64,000 nt of DNA from Microbacterium neungamense (GTDB taxonomy: Bacteria > Actinomycetota > Actinomycetes > Actinomycetales > Microbacteriaceae): NCBI RefSeq assembly GCF_024971095.1, contig NZ_CP069717.1:744001-808000 (forward strand), in the 5' to 3' direction. The position numbers and the translations under genes were made by a program. Shown here in pieces: positions 1,963 through 9,654 of the stretch. Position 1 is the first letter of the stretch. Each line of letters begins with the position of its first letter. Below the pieces are notes generated by a model. That model made no database searches, was not told where the DNA came from, and saw nothing but the letters and a program-made list of their open reading frames with translations.

Positions 1963-2163
1963 CCGTCCCTCACCTTCGTTCGACTTGACGGCGGTCCGCC
2001 AGGTGTTCATGATACCGGTGTAAGTGCATTATCCGGGTGAGAACTATCCCGAGGCTTCCGAGCGACTGACGCGCTCTGGCGGCTCGCCAACATGCAGGGT
2101 TGTGACATGCGGCGGTCGCGCGTCAGATGGCCGCAGGCGGTTCCGGTGGAGGTATTCTCAGGT

Positions 2164-2661
2164 CTATACGCGGAGAGCCTCGAGCACGTCGGTGACTGTG
2201 TCCGCCGGCGGGTGATCTGCACGGAGATCGAACTCTGCAACAGCCGTCCGACGTGCGTCGTAGGCCTCGATCTTCGCGATCGTTCCTTCACGCCAGATCC
2301 GGGTGAACACGACTGTGGGATTCATGACGGCTCCTTCGGGGGCGAGGAGCCCGAAGTTGTATAGAGTCTCTGCCCACCAGTAGTTCGCTGTCTGCTCCGG
2401 GGGCTCCCACTCCGCGGCCTGGTTGGCGGTGATCTTGCGACCTAGTGCCTTGGAAGCTGCGGACGCGATCACGTTCCGATCTGCTGAGGCCGGAGTGGTG
2501 AATACCTCACCGCCGATGAGGGTGAACTCGAGCGTGTCCGGGCCGAGCAGGATCTGCCGGATGAGACCATCGTGCGGGCGGAGGTTCTCCAAGGTGGAAG
2601 CTTCCCGGATGGCGTCGCGCCAGAGCGCGGCGTCAGCGGGGTCTCGGTCTGTCCTGGTCAT
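2164..2661 (-). CDS. Hypothetical cytosolic protein coupled to a secreted protein
   Basis: This 165-residue acidic protein has no signal peptide and no membrane segment. The start is taken as ATG 2661 because it overlaps the stop of the upstream gene as ATGA, which implies translational coupling; a longer in-frame start at 2694 would overlap that gene by 37 bases. It is predicted to be a compact alpha/beta protein (LEFTLIGGEVFTTP, then NYWWAETLYNFGLLAPEG). I do not recognise the family. Base composition is more AT-rich than the surrounding core genes, suggesting recent acquisition. Pairing with a secreted protein fits an immunity or chaperone role, but that is only a hypothesis. Confidence 0.6.
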   Translation of the reverse strand: MTRTDRDPADAALWRDAIREASTLENLRPHDGLIRQILLGPDTLEFTLIGGEVFTTPASADRNVIASAASKALGRKITANQAAEWEPPEQTANYWWAETLYNFGLLAPEGAVMNPTVVFTRIWREGTIAKIEAYDARRTAVAEFDLRADHPPADTVTDVLEALRV

Positions 2662-3320
2662 TGGTTCAGCGCGTTCTTCACGAAATCGGGGCATTTGCCG
2701 TCGATGCCCTCGCAGTAGGCGGTCACCACTCCGTACTTGTCACCCTGATATGAACGGAAATCCACGATGGTGCGCACCCAGACCGTACGAACGACCTTGC
2801 AGTTGTTCCCCCAGAAGTCGCACTTGACCTCGTTGGCGGCCAGTCGGTAGCGCCATGATGTGCCGCCGTCGGGGGTTCGTGTTGTAGCTTTCTGGGTGAC
2901 TACGCGTGGTGTGCGGTATGTCAGGTTGTGCTTGTTGAGGATCTTGTCGTACGGCTGGGACCGCAGCACAACTTGCCGACCACCGAAGTCATTCCACCGG
3001 AAGAGTACGTTGTTGGTCGCGGCTGCTCGCGCGGTGGGCGCGGGCTCAGCCTGAACTGTCGGCGCGCTTGAGGCTGTACCGGGGGTCACCTCGATCCCGA
3101 GCTGAGCGAGCTCTTCGTCTGAAACAATCGAGCCGACACCGTCTCCGACGTCACCGAGAACCGAGAATATGACGCCCTCATCAGTTTCGGCGGTCGGGTT
3201 AGCCGACGTATCGAACCCGGATGCGGTCGCAGGGGTAGCGGTCGCTAAGGTGAATGCTGCAGCGATCGCGAAGAAGGAGAGCACAGTCCTGCTGGTGGCC
3301 TTCGTCAGATGCATTGACAA
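2658..3320 (-). CDS. Secreted protein of unknown function
   Basis: The 220-residue product begins with a clear Sec signal peptide: basic MHLTKATSR, a hydrophobic stretch, then ATPATASG as the likely cleavage site. A disordered Thr/Ala/Pro region (about residues 35-100) precedes a C-terminal domain of about 115 residues with four cysteines (CDFWGNNC and YCEGIDGKC) that may form two disulfides. It ends CPDFVKNALNQ. An alternative start at Met3 is equally plausible. It is the first gene of a two-gene operon with the cytosolic gene at 2164. Composition is lower in GC than the core genes. The family is not recognised; it could be a secreted toxin-like or surface protein. Confidence 0.65.
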   Translation of the reverse strand: MSMHLTKATSRTVLSFFAIAAAFTLATATPATASGFDTSANPTAETDEGVIFSVLGDVGDGVGSIVSDEELAQLGIEVTPGTASSAPTVQAEPAPTARAAATNNVLFRWNDFGGRQVVLRSQPYDKILNKHNLTYRTPRVVTQKATTRTPDGGTSWRYRLAANEVKCDFWGNNCKVVRTVWVRTIVDFRSYQGDKYGVVTAYCEGIDGKCPDFVKNALNQ

Positions 3321-3405
3321 TGCTACCTTCCACGAGTTGAAGTCGATTCTGCCATCGGGCGACAGCAGAAGAACTCTCTGATTAGGGTATCACTAGGCCG
3401 TGTTG

Positions 3406-4005
3406 CTAAATCCATTGCAAGGCGGCGGAGAGGCAGAGCCCTGCCGCGTATGACCGGGCGGTCTTGTCGTAGCGGGAAGCGAGTCCGCGCCACTGCTTCA
3501 CGAAGTTGAAGCACCGCTCGACGACGTTGCGGCCCTTGTAGCGCTCCCGTTGCTCATCGCCGAAGTCGATCGGACGGCCCGGCCGCTTGCGGCGGTGCGC
3601 GATCTGGTCGTCGCGTTCGGGGATCGTGGCCTTGACGCCGCGCTCGCGCAGCCAGGCCCGGTTCTTCTTCGACGGGTAGCCCTTGTCCGCGAGCACCCGG
3701 TCCGGTCTCGTGCGCGCGGGCCCTCGGCCGGGGATGTGGATCTCGTCGAGTACGCAGGTGAACATGCTCGTGTCTGCGACCTGCCCGCCGGTGAGGACGA
3801 ACGCCAGCGCCCGGGCCTTCCCGTCGCAGACGAGATGGATCTTCGTCGTCAAACCACCCCGTGACCGGCCGATCGCGTGGTCAGGAGGCTCTGGCCCGGA
3901 CTTCTTGTAGTTCGACGGATCCCCCTGTGACCCGGGGCAAGGTCGCGCCATGCTGATGGACACGCGCGATCGAGGAATCCACCGACACGACCCAGTCGAT
4001 CTCAC
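3406..4005 (-). CDS. IS5-family transposase, C-terminal frame (orfB)
   Basis: The frame encodes the rest of the DDE transposase from about GDPSNYKKSGPEPPDHAIGRS. It continues through GGLTTKIHLVCDGKARAL, the second catalytic Asp in VLADKGY, and the Glu in GRNVVERCFNFVKQWRG. A +1 (or -2) shift near 3925-3945 (CCCC and GGGGG runs) joins it to orfA. Whether this is programmed frameshifting or an inactivating indel cannot be decided here. The frame's nominal start at 4005 is not a real initiation site. Confidence 0.82.
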   Translation of the reverse strand: MRSTGSCRWIPRSRVSISMARPCPGSQGDPSNYKKSGPEPPDHAIGRSRGGLTTKIHLVCDGKARALAFVLTGGQVADTSMFTCVLDEIHIPGRGPARTRPDRVLADKGYPSKKNRAWLRERGVKATIPERDDQIAHRRKRPGRPIDFGDEQRERYKGRNVVERCFNFVKQWRGLASRYDKTARSYAAGLCLSAALQWI

Positions 4006-4270
4006 CCTGAAGCGACGCCCGCTTCTGCACGTGGGTGAGCAGGTCCTCCCAGACGCCGTCGCTCGCCCACCGGCGGAAGTTCTTGTAGATCGTGTTCCAG
4101 CTCCCGAACCGGTCGGGCAGGTCTCGCCACGCCGATCCCGTGCGGAACCGCCACGCGGTCGCCTCGACCACCGTGCGCCGATCCACCGGAGGACGGCCCC
4201 GTGTCCTCACCGGCGGGAACACGTCCCGGATCAGCTCCCAGACCTCGTCCGTGATGACATCTCGCGACAC
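3881..4270 (-). CDS. IS5-family transposase, N-terminal frame (orfA)
   Basis: This 129-residue frame carries the usual N-terminal part of IS5/IS427 transposases: ITDEVWELIRDVFPP, GRPPVDRRTVVEATAWRFRTG, then WNTIYKNFRRWASDGVW. The first catalytic Asp lies in VVSVDSSIARVHQH. After HQHGATL the frame departs from the family pattern and ends soon after. The rest of the enzyme (GDPSNYKKSG and onward) is in the next frame. Confidence 0.85.
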   Translation of the reverse strand: MSRDVITDEVWELIRDVFPPVRTRGRPPVDRRTVVEATAWRFRTGSAWRDLPDRFGSWNTIYKNFRRWASDGVWEDLLTHVQKRASLQGEIDWVVSVDSSIARVHQHGATLPRVTGGSVELQEVRARAS

Positions 4271-4321
4271 GCCTCAAGAATCACCCAAAGGCCCCGAACC
4301 AGCATTTAGCAACACGGCCTA

Positions 4322-4509
4322 AGTAAGTGAGCCCGTCGAGGGAGCGGGCGGGGAAGCCTGACGTCGGCCTGAGCTTGAAGAGCAGCCCCATCGAGAGCGC
4401 AGTGGCTGGCCACGCCAGAGCATATGTACAGTTGACCGTTCATGTGAACCGCCGCAGGTTCACTGCCGCTGTCGCGCGGGGAGGGAACTGTCAGTTCAGC
4501 GGTGGTGGC
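4322..4509. other. Gap downstream of the recombinase operon with an inverted repeat
   Basis: No gene is visible in these 188 bases. GTGAACC (4444-4450) and GGTTCAC (4457-4463) form an interrupted palindrome. Related half-sites (ACAGTTGACC, AACTGTCAGTTCA) occur nearby. Short imperfect repeats at this position, at the 3' end of a recombinase operon, could be a recombinase-binding transposon end or attachment region; this is inference. Confidence 0.3.
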
Positions 4510-6033
4510 CTATCGACTGCTGTTTTCTCGCAGCGCCGGGTAGTCGCCGCGGGTGCTACCTGAGAGGCGGGCGTAGTTCTCGAAGGTGGCGACGCTGAAA
4601 TCGAGTATGTCTGCGAGGACTTTGGCGGGGACGGCTCCGGCGAGCCGGAACCGGGCGGCGTTCTGTAGCGCGGAGATGCTGGTGCCGACAGGGCGCAGGC
4701 GTAGTGAAAGGTATTGCGGGTCGAGAGGCTGCCCAGGGAGACGGCCAGGGAACAGCCATGCGTCATCGTCTGCGTCGGGTCGGAGGTCGAGTTGCTCCCG
4801 GGCGAGCAGGGTGATCGGCGCGGGCAACGTGAGCGGACGGTCTCCGATGCGGAGGTCGAGGCCGTCGTTCTCGTCGCGGAGCTGGCGGCGATGCAGCGCG
4901 AGCGTCTTGGTTGCGGGCAGTCCGTAGACCGCGATCAGCAGCGCCGCAAGGCGCGCATCGAGCGCGATACCGCGATCCGTGGCGAGGGTGCGGATGACGT
5001 TTTCAAGGTGTGCCTCGGACGTGCTGATCGCGGGTTCTCGGCGCGGAAGCGTGGAGATGTCGAGGTCGGGTGTGATGTCGCGTTCGGCGGCCCAGGTGAG
5101 GAACTGTGGGAGCCATCGTCGTGCGGTGTGGAGGGTGATGAACTCCTCGATCTGTGCCTGAGTGAGAGCGCGCAGGGGGGTCTGTTGTTCCTCAGCCCAG
5201 GTGAGGAAGGTGACGAGGCCCCGCAGCGATGCTTTGACGTGCCGAGCTGCGCCGATAGCGATGTCGCCTTCGGCATCTCGGCTGGCTCGGCGTAGCAGCA
5301 CCCATCGGGTGTAGGTGCGCAGCATCTGGTGGTGATCGGTGGCGGCTCCGCCGATGGTCTGCGTGGCCCAGGCCATCAGCTGCCGCGTGGCCGCCGCGTC
5401 GCGCGGTAGGGCACCGGCGTCGAGGAGGAGCGTGCGCAGGTAGATCAACGGCTTGCCCGGCCGCGGGGCGTCGAGGATCGACTCGACCGGCACCCGCCCA
5501 GAGGCGATGTCGCGGAGAACGTCGGTGCTCGGCCCCATGCGCAACCACTTGATGACCTGTGCTGGGCGAGGCTGGACGAGCAGGTAGTCGCGCAGTGCCC
5601 GCATCGGAGGAAGGAAGGCCCCGTCCGGGCCGGCGAGGATGTCGTTGCAGCGGTCGCTGAGAACGCACTTCCCGCAGAGGCGACCGTAGTTGTGTTCTTC
5701 GCTCCCGCAGCGGCGGCAGGCGTAGCGGGCGGGCTGCCCCGCGCATCCCGCGCAGCATGGGCGGTCGTCGTCACTGAGGAACGCGAGGATGCGTTTCTCG
5801 CCGCACCCGGGGCAAGGGGCGGCGTTGCGCAAGATGCGGTTGTGGCAGGCGAAGCAGTGCGGGCCGTGCAGGATGGTCGCGGCGATCTTCTTTTGTTGCC
5901 CGCACGAGACGCAACGCCGCAGTCGCCGGGGATAGCAGTTCAGGCAGACTCTTCTCCCGTCGATGCGCCCGACAGTGGTAACGATCTTCCCGCAGTTCTC
6001 GCACGCGAACGTCGGCACGGAAAGTGTCAAGGC
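4510..6033 (-). pseudogene. Zinc-ribbon recombinase-like protein, 3' fragment (cut by IS3 element)
   Basis: This fragment of about 507 codons opens with repeated zinc-ribbon cysteine pairs (CENC, CLNC, CVSC, CFAC, CPGC, CAGC, CRRC, CGKC). It continues into a C-terminal region laid out like a tyrosine recombinase: a SAM-like helical part (TPLRALTQAQIEEFITLHT), then a catalytic-like part ending FENYARLSGSTRGDY. The usual first Arg (TGLRISE) is replaced by YGLPATKTLAL, and the HxxR box is degraded to LQNAARFRLA, although a terminal Tyr is kept. Its N-terminal part is at 7510-7989, across the IS3 element. The whole protein would be about 665 residues, similar in size to TnpB of Tn554. Confidence 0.72.
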
Positions 6034-6050
6034 GGGTGAGACAGATTCCG

Positions 6051-7052
6051 TCAGGCGGTCTGTATGAGGGCCTCCTGTGAGGGCTGGTTGATCCAGGCGG
6101 CCTCGGGCAGCGTGGGCGCCTGGGGTCGGCGGTGGCCGAAGCGCTCGGGACGGGCGGCGTAGGCCGCGTCCAGGGTGGTCTGGCGCTGGGCGCGGACCTG
6201 CCCGGCGGTGCCGAAGTGGACGCTGGCGGGGGTGTGCAGCCCGATCCCGCAGTGGCGGTGCTCGTGGTTGTAGTAGGCGAAGAACTGCTCGGCGAACGCG
6301 CCGGCGTCGGCCAGGGACCCGAAGCGCTCGGGGAAGACCGGGGCGTACTTCAGCGTCTTGAACGCCGCCTCGCTGTAAGGGTTGTCGTTCGACACGTGCG
6401 GGCGGGAGTGCGACCTGGCCACCCCGAGGTCGACGAGCAGCTGAGCGACCGGTTTGGAGGTCATCGAGGTCCCGCGGTCGGCGTGGATCGCCTCCGGCAC
6501 GCCATGGATGCCCATGGCGTGCTCGAGCAGGTTCTTGGCGATCTCGGCGTCCTCGCGGGCCGCGATGGTCCAGCCCACGACGAACCTGGAGAAGATGTCG
6601 AGCACGACGTACAGGTCGTAGTACACGCCCCGCTCCGGCCCCTTGAGCTTTGTGATGTCCCAACTCCACACCTGCCCCGGCGCCGTCGCGACGAGCTCGG
6701 GCCGGGTCCGGGGCGGGTGGCTCGCCTGCCGGCGCCGTTCCCCGGCCATGTCGTGCTCGCGCAGGATCCGGTGCATCGTGGACATCGAGCACAGGTAGGT
6801 GCCCTCGTCCAGCAGCGTGGCCCAGACCTGGGCGACCGACTTGTCCGCGAACCGCTGGCTGGTCAACACGGCCAGCACGTGGGCCCGCTCGGCGGCGGAC
6901 AGCTTGTTCGCCGGTGCCGGCCGCGGTGTCCGTGGACGTGGCGGTGGCGGGTTCTTGGCCCGGTAGTGACTGGCGCGGGAGCGACCCAGCAGCGCGCACG
7001 CAGCCGCGGTGCCGACGTGCTCGGCCAGCCCGTCGACGGCCGGGTTGATCAC
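6051..7052 (-). CDS. IS3-family transposase, catalytic subunit (orfB)
   Basis: The protein has the integrase-type DDE core: Asp in WSWDITKLKGPERG, Asp in IHADRGTSMTSKPV and Glu in NDNPYSEAAFKTLKY. A helical N-terminal part precedes it (LLGRSRASHYRAKN, then YLCSMSTMHRILREHD). GTG 7052 is one possible internal start. More likely the frame is reached by -1 slippage on the A-run of GGGAAAAGC (plus-strand CTTTT at 7111-7115), making an OrfAB fusion that reads MGK then STRALGD. The element looks complete and potentially active. Confidence 0.9.
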   Translation of the reverse strand: MINPAVDGLAEHVGTAAACALLGRSRASHYRAKNPPPPRPRTPRPAPANKLSAAERAHVLAVLTSQRFADKSVAQVWATLLDEGTYLCSMSTMHRILREHDMAGERRRQASHPPRTRPELVATAPGQVWSWDITKLKGPERGVYYDLYVVLDIFSRFVVGWTIAAREDAEIAKNLLEHAMGIHGVPEAIHADRGTSMTSKPVAQLLVDLGVARSHSRPHVSNDNPYSEAAFKTLKYAPVFPERFGSLADAGAFAEQFFAYYNHEHRHCGIGLHTPASVHFGTAGQVRAQRQTTLDAAYAARPERFGHRRPQAPTLPEAAWINQPSQEALIQTA

Positions 7053-7453
7053 CGCGGCGACCGCGGCGGCTTGTCCGCGCTCTCGGAGAGCGTCTCCAAG
7101 AGCGCGTGTGCTTTTCCCATCAGGTCCAGCGCCGCCCTGGTCTTGGCCAGCTCGGCCTCGGCCTTCTCCGCCCGGGCCCGTAGCGCCTGCAGCTCCCGCT
7201 CGCGCCGGTCCCGCGGCTTGCTGCCCAGCCCGGACAGCGAGCCGGCGGCCGCGGCCTTGCGCCACTCGATGATGTGGGAGGTGTACAGGCCCTCCCGGCG
7301 CAGGATCTCCCCACGCCCAGAGCGGTCCGCGGCGTCGTACTCGGCCAGGATCGCCGCTTTGAACTCGGCGGTGAACGTCCGCCTCTTGGGCCGGTCAGCA
7401 CGAGGAGCCATAGCCCCATCATCGGTGCCGACGTCAGCAACCGTCATCGTCAT
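7049..7453 (-). CDS. IS3-family transposase, DNA-binding subunit (orfA)
   Basis: This 134-residue protein has the IS3 OrfA helix-turn-helix (KRRTFTAEFKAAILAEYD, then ILRREGLYTSHIIEWRKA). A leucine-zipper-like coiled coil follows (ERELQALRARAEKAEAELAKTRAALDLMGKA). The -1 frameshift site sits at the MGKA codons. Its role is binding the terminal repeats and regulating transposition. A slightly shorter start at Met15 (MAPRADRPKRR) is possible. Confidence 0.88.
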   Translation of the reverse strand: MTMTVADVGTDDGAMAPRADRPKRRTFTAEFKAAILAEYDAADRSGRGEILRREGLYTSHIIEWRKAAAAGSLSGLGSKPRDRRERELQALRARAEKAEAELAKTRAALDLMGKAHALLETLSESADKPPRSPR

Positions 7454-7509
7454 CTCAGTATTGGTCCGTTCTCGCCCCGTGCAGTGCGAAGGTCAGCAGT
7501 GCTGGTGTC

Positions 7510-7989
7510 TCACCCCATCCTGACGCACAGGGGCATGCCGTCCGTTCCGCAGGGCTGGCAGACGCGCTGCCCATCGGCGTTGGTGGCGGTGAGCTTCTTC
7601 ATCCGCAAGCACTGGGGGCACTCGCCACGCGATCGGCTCTGCGCGCAGCGGAAGCACTCGCGCTGTCCTTGCTCGTTGCGCTTCTTGACGACCTTCCGGG
7701 TGCGACACGTCGGGCAGAGCGGGAGCCGGACACCCGTCACGCCTTCGCGTGCGAGATTCGCAAGAAAAACCTGGACGATGACGGTGGTCTCAGCGTGCAC
7801 GTCAGCGGGATCGAACTCTTCGCTCGACAGCAGGCGGAGCACTCCGTTCCGTCGCGACGGTGCGATGATCCGCTCTGCCGCGTCGACTATGGCCTGTTCC
7901 AGCGCGGTCACGCCTTTGTTGGCCTGCGCCGCCGCGACGCGCAGCCCGAAAGCCCCGTCCGGCTGCGGGGTGCCGCGTGGGATCGTCAC
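7510..7989 (-). pseudogene. Zinc-ribbon recombinase-like protein, 5' fragment (cut by IS3 element)
   Basis: GTG 7989 overlaps the stop of the XRE-like gene as GTGA. The fragment has a helical N-terminus (VTALEQAIVDAAERIIAPSRR), then the start of the zinc-ribbon array (CPTC, CFRC, CPQC, CQPC). It runs into the IS3 element after PLCVRM and stops at the TGA contributed by the element end. Joined to 4510-6033 it forms one protein with at least a dozen Cys pairs. The spacing of about 15-20 residues between pairs suggests tandem DNA-binding ribbons. Confidence 0.7.
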
Positions 7990-8315
7990 GGCTTCGGTCG
8001 CTGGATGCGCGCGGGGACGGGGCGCAGGTCACCGATGTCCTCGATCCTCCCGCTCGTGCCCGTCGCCTCCACCGACCGCACGGCAGCTTGATCGAGGACG
8101 AGCAGGTCGCTGGGCGTGCAGTCCAGGATCGTGCAGAGCGCGGCAAGGACCTCGACGTTGAGACGTTGCGGGGCCTGCGTCACCAGCCGGAAGACCTGCT
8201 CGCGGGAGAGCGCGACGCCTTCGGCTTTCAACGGTTCGAGGAGGTCGGTGGTCTTGAACATGCCGCGCTCGGCCATCAGCGTTCGCAGCCGCCAGGTGAT
8301 CGTCTTCGTTGTCAT
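7986..8315 (-). CDS. Small Cro/C1-type helix-turn-helix protein
   Basis: The 109-residue protein carries one XRE-like domain (WRLRTLMAERGMFKTTDLLEPLK, LSREQVFRLVTQAPQRLNVEVLAALCTILDCTPSDLLVL) and a short basic tail. It is second in a three-gene operon: its ATG overlaps the integrase stop (ATGA) and its stop overlaps the next start (GTGA). Position and size recall the small accessory protein TnpC of Tn554-type elements, although the fold seen here is a repressor-like HTH. It may bind the palindrome at 9421-9453 and control the operon; that is inference. Confidence 0.82.
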   Translation of the reverse strand: MTTKTITWRLRTLMAERGMFKTTDLLEPLKAEGVALSREQVFRLVTQAPQRLNVEVLAALCTILDCTPSDLLVLDQAAVRSVEATGTSGRIEDIGDLRPVPARIQRPKP

Positions 8316-9418
8316 CAGGTGCTTCCTTCCGGGAAGTAGAACTTGTCGATCGCCGCAGCCAGGACACGATTGCGGTAGTCATCGGTCACCGAGGTGTAGA
8401 TCGCCGTCGTCGAGGCGTAGGCGTGACCGACTTGGGTCTGCACGAACTGCTCCGCGTAACCGAGCTCGATCAGATGCGTCACGTAGGAGTGGCGCAGGCT
8501 GTGCAGGGTCAACGCGCCGGGCAGCCCGGCCTCGTCGCGCAGCTGTGCGAACCGGCGGTCGAGGTAGCGGTCACCGACGCGCGTGCCGCGCTCGGTCGGC
8601 CATAGTCCCGGATGGTTGCCGGGGTTGAACTTCTCCCGAACCTGCTCGACGTAGACGCGCAGCCCGTCGATGGCCCAGTCGAACTCCGGTAGCGACAGTA
8701 CCGAGCGACGCTTGGGGATCGAGCCTTTCGAGGACTTCCCGTGCCGCACGTGTAGCAGCCCGAACCGGCCCCATTGCGGTGTCTTCGCGTTCGTGCGCAG
8801 ATCGACCACATCCAGACCCAGCGCCTCGCGGCGGCGTAGCCCCCACGCGTAGATCGTCTTCAGCAACTGCGCGTCCCGCAGCGCGGCCAGCGCGCCCTTG
8901 CGGCCCTGCTGTCGCAGCGTCTCCACTCGGGCGTCCGCGACGGCGAACAGTGCCTCCAGCTCGTCATAGTCCAGCGGGCGACGGCCCGGCGTGCCCTCGA
9001 AATCGACGGTGTGCGCGACCGTGTTCCACTCGAAGCATACCTGTGTCGGCACCGACCCGAACCGAGACCGGCACTCCGCGACCCAGCCGTAGCGCTGGTC
9101 GGTGATGAAGTCGCAGAACGCGCGCAACGTCAGGTGATAGATCCGCACTGTCGACCGCGCCAACGGGCGTGGGCCGCTGAACAGGCTCGTCGTAAAGTCC
9201 TCGACGTCACCCGGCAGCCACTCCCACGGGTATGAGTCCGCGAACCGCTGGAACCGCTCCACCTGCCAGCGGCGCATCTGAATAGTCTGCGTCGCCAGGC
9301 CACGGCTCGTCTGCTGGCGGGAAAACCCATCGAGCATTCCGCTGAACACGGCCGCGTCCTCATGCAACGGCACGACGCCCGGCTGCCGAAGCAGCAGCAC
9401 CTCCGCATCATCACTCAC
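8315..9418 (-). CDS. Tyrosine recombinase/integrase
   Basis: The 367-residue protein has an N-terminal core-binding domain (about residues 20-125) and a complete catalytic domain. Visible residues are Arg195 in YAWGLRRREALGL, Lys228 in VRHGKSSKG, His306 and Arg309 in HSLRHSYVTHL, His332 in QVGHAYASTT and nucleophile Tyr341 in TAIYTSV. The start is GTG 9418, immediately beside the palindrome 9421-9453. It should cut and rejoin DNA at a specific site through a covalent phosphotyrosine. As the only member of the operon with an intact active site, it is the likely strand-exchange enzyme; TnpA of Tn554 has a similar size. Confidence 0.92.
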   Translation of the reverse strand: MSDDAEVLLLRQPGVVPLHEDAAVFSGMLDGFSRQQTSRGLATQTIQMRRWQVERFQRFADSYPWEWLPGDVEDFTTSLFSGPRPLARSTVRIYHLTLRAFCDFITDQRYGWVAECRSRFGSVPTQVCFEWNTVAHTVDFEGTPGRRPLDYDELEALFAVADARVETLRQQGRKGALAALRDAQLLKTIYAWGLRRREALGLDVVDLRTNAKTPQWGRFGLLHVRHGKSSKGSIPKRRSVLSLPEFDWAIDGLRVYVEQVREKFNPGNHPGLWPTERGTRVGDRYLDRRFAQLRDEAGLPGALTLHSLRHSYVTHLIELGYAEQFVQTQVGHAYASTTAIYTSVTDDYRNRVLAAAIDKFYFPEGST

Positions 9419-9420
9419 CC

Positions 9421-9453
9421 CATCATTATTGCATCTAATGCAACGTTATGATG
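9421..9453. promoter_or_regulatory. Palindrome at the recombinase operon start
   Basis: The centre is TTGCAT-CTA-ATGCAA (9429-9443), flanked by CATCAT (9421-9426) and ATGATG (9448-9453). With one unpaired base the symmetry extends outward into TCACC/GGGTGA. It lies just upstream of the GTG start of the integrase and is AT-rich compared with its surroundings. It could be an operator for the XRE-like protein, a recombination crossover site, or both. TAATG/CATTA patches inside could also serve as a -10 box. Confidence 0.5.
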
Positions 9454-9654
9454 GGTGACATGGCTCACAACGCGGATCGCGCCCTTGCGAAACCGCCCGG
9501 AATCGTGGGGCCGAGCACCCATCCGGGGGCATCGGCGCTCCCCCACTCCAGGGCTACGCTGACAAGCAGGCGCGATCATGGCGACCCGAAGGCGCGGAAA
9601 CACGCGGAATCGCGGGATGTTGCATCAGCTCGAAAAGTTCTCGGTTTCATAGTC

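Follow-up and report, generated by a model that had tools for sequence, protein, structure and literature searches.

What kind of mobile unit is formed by the genes for a tyrosine recombinase (integrase), a small helix-turn-helix (HTH) protein and a large zinc-ribbon protein, which adjoin each other in a stretch of 64,000 nucleotides from Microbacterium neungamense (contig NZ_CP069717.1, positions 744,001 to 808,000; hereafter the window, counted from its first letter)? A preliminary description had confined the recombinase operon to 4510..9418 and had left ends, target and cargo open. That span is too small: the region 2013-9646 very probably represents a transposon of an actinobacterial family, with the operon of integrase, HTH and large zinc-ribbon gene as its engine. 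This reading is based on the ends, empty sites, near-identical copies at different places in different genomes, varying cargo, the kept gene order and a predicted protein fold; ends, targets and cargo are now largely determined. The constituents of the unit are listed below, with ends and cores located by junction comparison.

9644..9649, minus strand: attL core, with the left (integrase-side) end of the element at 9646
9429..9443, no strand: TTGCAT-N3-ATGCAA dyad immediately preceding the start of the integrase gene; presumed operator for the HTH protein
8315..9418, minus strand: integrase, 367 residues, full catalytic set
7986..8315, minus strand: Cro/C1-type HTH protein, 109 residues
7510..7989, minus strand: 5' piece of the large zinc-ribbon gene, the final codons of which (below 7532) are IS3 DNA
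6018..7531, minus strand: IS3-family insertion sequence (IS) inside the large gene, 1,514 bp, TGCC on both sides
4510..6017, minus strand: 3' piece of the large gene, encoding the remaining zinc-ribbon array and a predicted tyrosine-recombinase-fold domain (fold taken from the intact homologue P0001)
3391..4318, minus strand: IS5-family element separating the trio from the cargo, with ends placed to within a few bases
2661..3320, minus strand: cargo 1, 220 residues
2167..2694, minus strand: cargo 2, 176 residues, without family match
2010..2015, minus strand: attR core, with the right end of the element at 2013

The ends at 2013 and 9646 were assigned because common blocks and matching ends recur in other loci. 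Locus L090 (genome G073, same genus) shares 2013-9650 with the window, minus the IS3 and IS5 elements (the latter at approximately 3391-4318), in three blocks: one with the integrase, the HTH gene and the 5' part of the large gene (95.6% identity) and two others (99.0% and 98.7%). Both sequences diverge outside the two ends. The left end is identical in L022-L026 and L029, the right end in L023, L024, L026, L029, L030/L104 (a single place) and the partial copy L103. Moreover, a 4,162-bp unit is common to L024 (Brachybacterium) and L029 (Microbacterium) at 99.7% identity. Comparison with seven other left junctions divides the 6-bp attL core (minus strand) into a variable outer half of 3 bp, which belongs to the host, and an inner half of 3 bp, AAC, which belongs to the element and is directly followed inward by the motif CGAGAACTTTTCGA. 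In the 6-bp attR core (minus strand) the inner 3 bp, GTA, belong to the element and the variable outer 3 bp to the host; here the motif ATAGTTCTCACCCGGATAATGCACTTACACCGGTA extends up to 2013.

The window element sits between an AzlC-like open reading frame (ORF; named by eye) and a divergent XRE-type regulator. The flank carrying the regulator matched 314 genomes, and in the best 19 loci of these, examined besides the window's own, the site was uninterrupted without exception, with 6 bases separating the flanking blocks. A second site, a fic-like gene, is occupied in both L026 and L029; among the long matches to its flanks, examined besides the two occupied sites, it was unsplit in 10/10 relatives, and there, too, the blocks are 6 bases apart. 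Fixation of the locus in all relatives without empty sites, which the preliminary description had named as a ground for refuting its reading, is thus not what is seen. The element-side half-core reads AAC or AAG in 8/8 left junctions and GTA (seven) or GTG (one) in eight right junctions, with variable outer halves. The simplest account of these sequences would be a clean insertion that duplicates nothing and in which the exchange takes place halfway along a 6-bp core; we infer such a 3+3 core mainly because the inner half-cores are constant. Next to the AzlC-like ORF, the XRE-cupin-like regulator (1415-2010) itself shows up as two overlapping ORFs in different frames, as after a frameshift.

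The integrase matches PF00589 (E-value 2.6e-17). Its catalytic residues R195, K228, H306, R309, H332 and Y341, assigned by motif, are all present and identical in 22/22 aligned relatives, and the second protein matches HTH_26 (PF13443, E-value 3.6e-15), so that the initial identification of a complete tyrosine recombinase and a 109-residue HTH protein is borne out. All three genes are arranged head to tail on the minus strand (9418-8315, 8315-7986 and the large gene from 7989). The GTGA overlap proposed for the second junction was confirmed, whereas the first is not ATGA but TGATG with one shared base. Upstream of the integrase, a TTGCA-N2-5-TGCAA dyad occurs in 15/74 non-redundant regions, where 0.05 would be expected from single-base shuffles.

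The third protein had been described as intact, with about 665 residues. In the window its frame ends after 159 residues at a stop at 7510, because an IS3-family element occupies 6018-7531; the ORFs 7453-7049 and 7265-6051 are the transposase pair of this element. Its boundaries are given by L090, which reads GCATGCC-GACGTT where the window carries the insert flanked by TGCC on both sides, and ten near-identical copies of full query length, the window copy included, are present in the 2.5-Mb genome (G000). The 829-residue ORF 4510-6999 begins in IS3 DNA, not at the large gene's own start, and is therefore an artefact of the insertion. With its large gene broken, the window copy is thus probably immobile unless helped in trans. 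The large gene is unbroken in L090, and the intact homologue P0001 comprises 653 residues at 99% identity to the window's C-terminal piece. The proposed array of at least a dozen Cys-pair ribbons is found in P0001, with 12 CxxC pairs; the piece before the break in the window copy has four.

No PF00589 match was obtained for the large protein in a Pfam scan. It is nevertheless predicted to adopt a tyrosine-recombinase fold including the core-binding part, with an active site that appears degenerate and the catalytic set apparently lost, the positions being assigned by reading motifs. A sequence search of solved structures returned mostly small Cys-rich proteins and, weakly, Xer recombinases (1a0p, E-value 0.047; 4a8e, 0.1). 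The window's own genome contains a second, diverged relative of the large protein with one internal stop (G000:C1:2336722-2337687).

Matches to the large protein were detected in 100/366 genomes searched in the window's genus, 49/396 in the order and, by profile at a stricter E-value, 23/396 in the phylum, tallies which include fragments and the window's own genome. Gene order was recorded for the window and L090-L184, i.e., 74 loci of the genus and 21 of the order, with large ORFs of at least 300 residues (n = 97); long matches were counted, fragments and most weaker matches dropped and near-identical copies counted apart, and the window's 829-residue artefact is one of the 97. An integrase gene lies upstream on the same strand in 88/97, together with an HTH gene in 76 of these, and in five further loci (L134, L151, L156, L165, L176) the HTH is part of a longer ORF. 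The large gene thus does not usually occur without the integrase, and the order integrase-HTH-large protein recurs across actinobacterial loci. The first five plasmid regions opened contained the trio in three cases; L019 begins inside the trio and L020 differs.

The flanks of these elements suggest a tendency towards insertion into conserved coding motifs. A diverged subfamily (large protein ~26% identical) forms a unit of 6.6-6.9 kb with 99.7-99.9% identity between L095 and L097-L102 (six further genomes). Where the left flank could be read (six loci: L095, L098-L102), it looks like a glutaredoxin/NrdH-like gene, which Pfam confirmed for L098; the others were judged by eye. The fic assignment lies narrowly above the Pfam cut-off for the right flank of L029 (24.1 vs. 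24) and below it for the left flanks of L023 and L025 (21.6 and 18.8), which both read HPFREGNGR. Further genes entered encode a UmuC-like protein (L122 by Pfam, L133 by eye), a T2SSE-type ATPase (L112 by Pfam, L118 and L121 by eye) and a major facilitator superfamily (MFS) protein (L114 by Pfam), and three elements entered ORF starts reading MCGRFA (L142, L144, L149, by eye). For numerous loci no target gene could be assigned from the flanks, among them L022, L090, L103, L110, L111, L115, L119, L124, L125, L146-L148, L151, L161, L168, L170 and L176, and the window copy is intergenic; motif targeting is therefore a tendency and not a rule. For L024 (8345 and 12495) fic was rejected as target: its left flank is a gene for a YdcZ-type exporter (Pfam) and its right flank is fic-like (by eye), as at a rearranged junction, and the locus was therefore excluded from the target argument. 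In genome G224 the nrdH-type element is present twice (L095, L096), within an 18.9-kb repeat that is 99.995% identical.

Taken as a class, these elements may constitute a further group of autonomous tyrosine-recombinase transposons with their centre in the Actinobacteria. In this group one active recombinase would work with a catalytically dead one, fused to a long array of zinc ribbons, and the array would recognize conserved coding motifs of the host, as in fic, nrdH, umuC and MCGRF-type starts; insertion would leave no target duplication, with the exchange halfway along a 6-bp core. We put this forward tentatively, at a little less than an even chance. The integrase would perform all cutting and joining at the core, which is flanked by unlike inverted end motifs. 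By analogy to what may hold for Tfp and GinC of SE and GInt elements, the large protein could occupy one of the subunit positions of the synapse but not cut, and its zinc ribbons might help to select the target. The HTH protein would bind the TTGCA dyad close to where the integrase gene starts and serve either as a regulator or as a directionality factor, and the element might move via a circular form.

Several points weigh against the transposon reading with this mechanism. Movement, the circle and the protein activities are proposals. A 6-bp overlap with mismatch repair is not expected to yield 3+3 junctions every time. At the fic site, the outer halves of L029 (GAGGTC) agree only in part with the GCGGTC or GCCGTC of the empty sites, and the window's outer halves read TGATCA (plus strand) compared with GAATGA (11), GAATGT (7) and TGATGA (1), so that the window site alone cannot separate the 3+3 core from other schemes; the empty sites compared are diverged, with a flank identity of 76-89%. 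When the profiles of the large protein and the integrase were compared, no meaningful alignment resulted, and the catalytic positions of the large protein rest on motif reading. The position of the catalytic tyrosine is Y in 40/72 large proteins, that of ArgI is R in six and that of ArgII in three, so some members may keep activity. The dyad is found in just 15/74 upstream regions, 10/15 of them from one subfamily. Finally, 9/97 large genes have no integrase nearby (L117 is cut by a contig end, L104 is a truncated element), and no integrase was found beside the XRE-annotated large gene of plasmid region L020.

Kinship to Tn554 (TnpA, TnpC, TnpB) with an altered order, as suggested initially, would be in line with the similar sizes, the presence of a large recombinase-fold protein and an integration without clear target duplication. 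In Tn554 and a Tn554-related class, the latter often on actinobacterial plasmids, a short and a long recombinase-like protein likewise occur in tandem, but the long one carries a catalytic motif and the third partner is TnpC-like or missing (PMC3414803). The window trio contains no second catalytic recombinase corresponding to TnpB, its third protein having neither a PF00589 match nor most of the catalytic residues. The long recombinases of pRHL2 and Arthrobacter FB24 both have PF00589 matches, and neither is similar to the large protein, which argues against Famint36/41 as well (long proteins of these two listed plasmids compared). The Cro/C1-type HTH protein has PF13443 as its only match at E-values up to 0.1, where TnpC would be a DUF6262-like protein. 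In M. aubagnense the trio even lies beside a separate-looking set of recombinase and DUF6262 genes, which we read as Tn554-type. We therefore rejected a diverged Tn554 element as very unlikely. That the operon is one module of a satellite or of an integrative plasmid or phage remnant is highly improbable: members are frequent on plasmids (tblastn matches in 214 plasmid records), but the trio and one or a few passengers are contained in units of ~4-7 kb whose ends are conserved, and no relative was encoded in any of the 32 candidate stretches from viral contigs. The seemingly degenerate active site might also mark the large protein as an accessory or regulator of an integrase that moves the element alone. 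We regard this as unlikely, since integrase and large protein remain together even in highly diverged members, and the recombinase fold predicted for the large protein includes the core-binding part.

The transposon reading thus leads to a type that had been suspected to be little described, with its three genes in the order given here, and this suspicion is supported. Judged mainly by titles and the beginnings of abstracts, with subscription journals thinly covered, the trio is described in PMC6305408 only; it was not met in the parts consulted of PMC3414803, PMC5385486, PMC8138268, PMC9689679 and PMC10214605. XER modules of Arthrobacter plasmids consist of a tyrosine recombinase, an XRE-type regulator and a second recombinase-like gene, the same genes in the same order as in the window, likewise with variable cargo adjoining the core, and one module is inserted between umuC and umuD (PMC6305408). 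Since the pA2H2 proteins match our integrase, HTH and large-protein profiles (E-values 3.6e-146, 3.3e-32 and 2.9e-94), the XER module belongs to the same family. Exact ends, a target rule, the fold, a degenerate active site and the distribution are not given in the parts consulted (PMC6305408).

SE elements are alike in that their operon joins an active recombinase to a recombinase-fold protein devoid of the RHRY set (Tfp); they also have cargo, a 6-bp core and end motifs that form imperfect inverted repeats, but differ by two RHRY recombinases, Tfp and Srap and by their occurrence in Gammaproteobacteria (PMC10214605). The window trio, in which a single PF00589 recombinase goes with an HTH protein and a zinc-ribbon protein, lacks the two catalytic recombinases which characterize SE. 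On insertion, SE elements bring 6 bp of left-flanking DNA along to their new right end (PMC10214605); the constant inner half-cores of the window family would seem unlike this. GInts share with the window family a protein without part of the recombinase motifs (GinC), and 6-nt staggered cuts with resolution of a 3-nt heteroduplex were proposed for them; they differ by four genes, three of recombinase type, and a GinD without InterProScan domain (PMC5385486). Compared with ginABCD and its three recombinase-type proteins, the window trio has two recombinase-fold proteins. Gamma-mobile-trios also combine recombinases with cargo, but the window integrase scores 14-15 bits against NCBIfam cut-offs of 600 and 340 for GmtZ and GmtY. 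RIT elements are three-gene units as well, yet all three genes encode recombinases of 315-410 residues with a catalytic tyrosine (PMC10214605), unlike here. None of the five groups in Table 1 of PMC10214605 is described there with the make-up of the window family. The non-phage transposons Tn554, SE, GInt and RIT contain two or three recombinases, and the roles of dead or accessory ones are poorly understood (PMC10214605). The window family has one active and one apparently dead enzyme, and the synapse role of a dead recombinase could therefore be tested by removing one gene.

Some units carry genes resembling metal- or drug-resistance genes, while the large gene is mostly annotated as hypothetical or generic integrase among the plasmid records listed. 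Cargo of L110 comprises a cadmium-type P-ATPase and a CadD-like protein, that of L119 a mercuric reductase; the right limit of both units was set where near-identical copies cease to match. Among further units whose ends were located, L095 carries MFS and ABC-F proteins, L026 an S66 peptidase, L104 a methyltransferase-like protein (by eye) and L029 a weak Cass2/GyrI match below the cut-offs. Mercuric reductase and P-ATPase matches exceed the family cut-offs, whereas those for MFS and ABC-F do not reach the cut-offs of the NCBIfam families that they match best. An FAD-oxidoreductase gene near L144 was excluded because the right end of that element is not fixed. In the window, cargo 1 has a signal-peptide-like N-terminus (by eye) and 18 relatives in a protein search; the best of them, P0220 (99%), has 43 member sequences on 33 contigs, and its scan gave no Pfam match at an E-value of 0.01. 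Weak hits to Cas6e (PADLOC, E-value 0.011) and CRISPR_assoc (Pfam, 0.096) were taken as chance. Cargo 2 had no Pfam match. On the M. aubagnense plasmid (L018:4644-14788) the trio element, with MFS and MerR cargo, is located between a recombinase gene and a recombinase plus DUF6262 gene and thus apparently lies inside a Tn554-like transposon.

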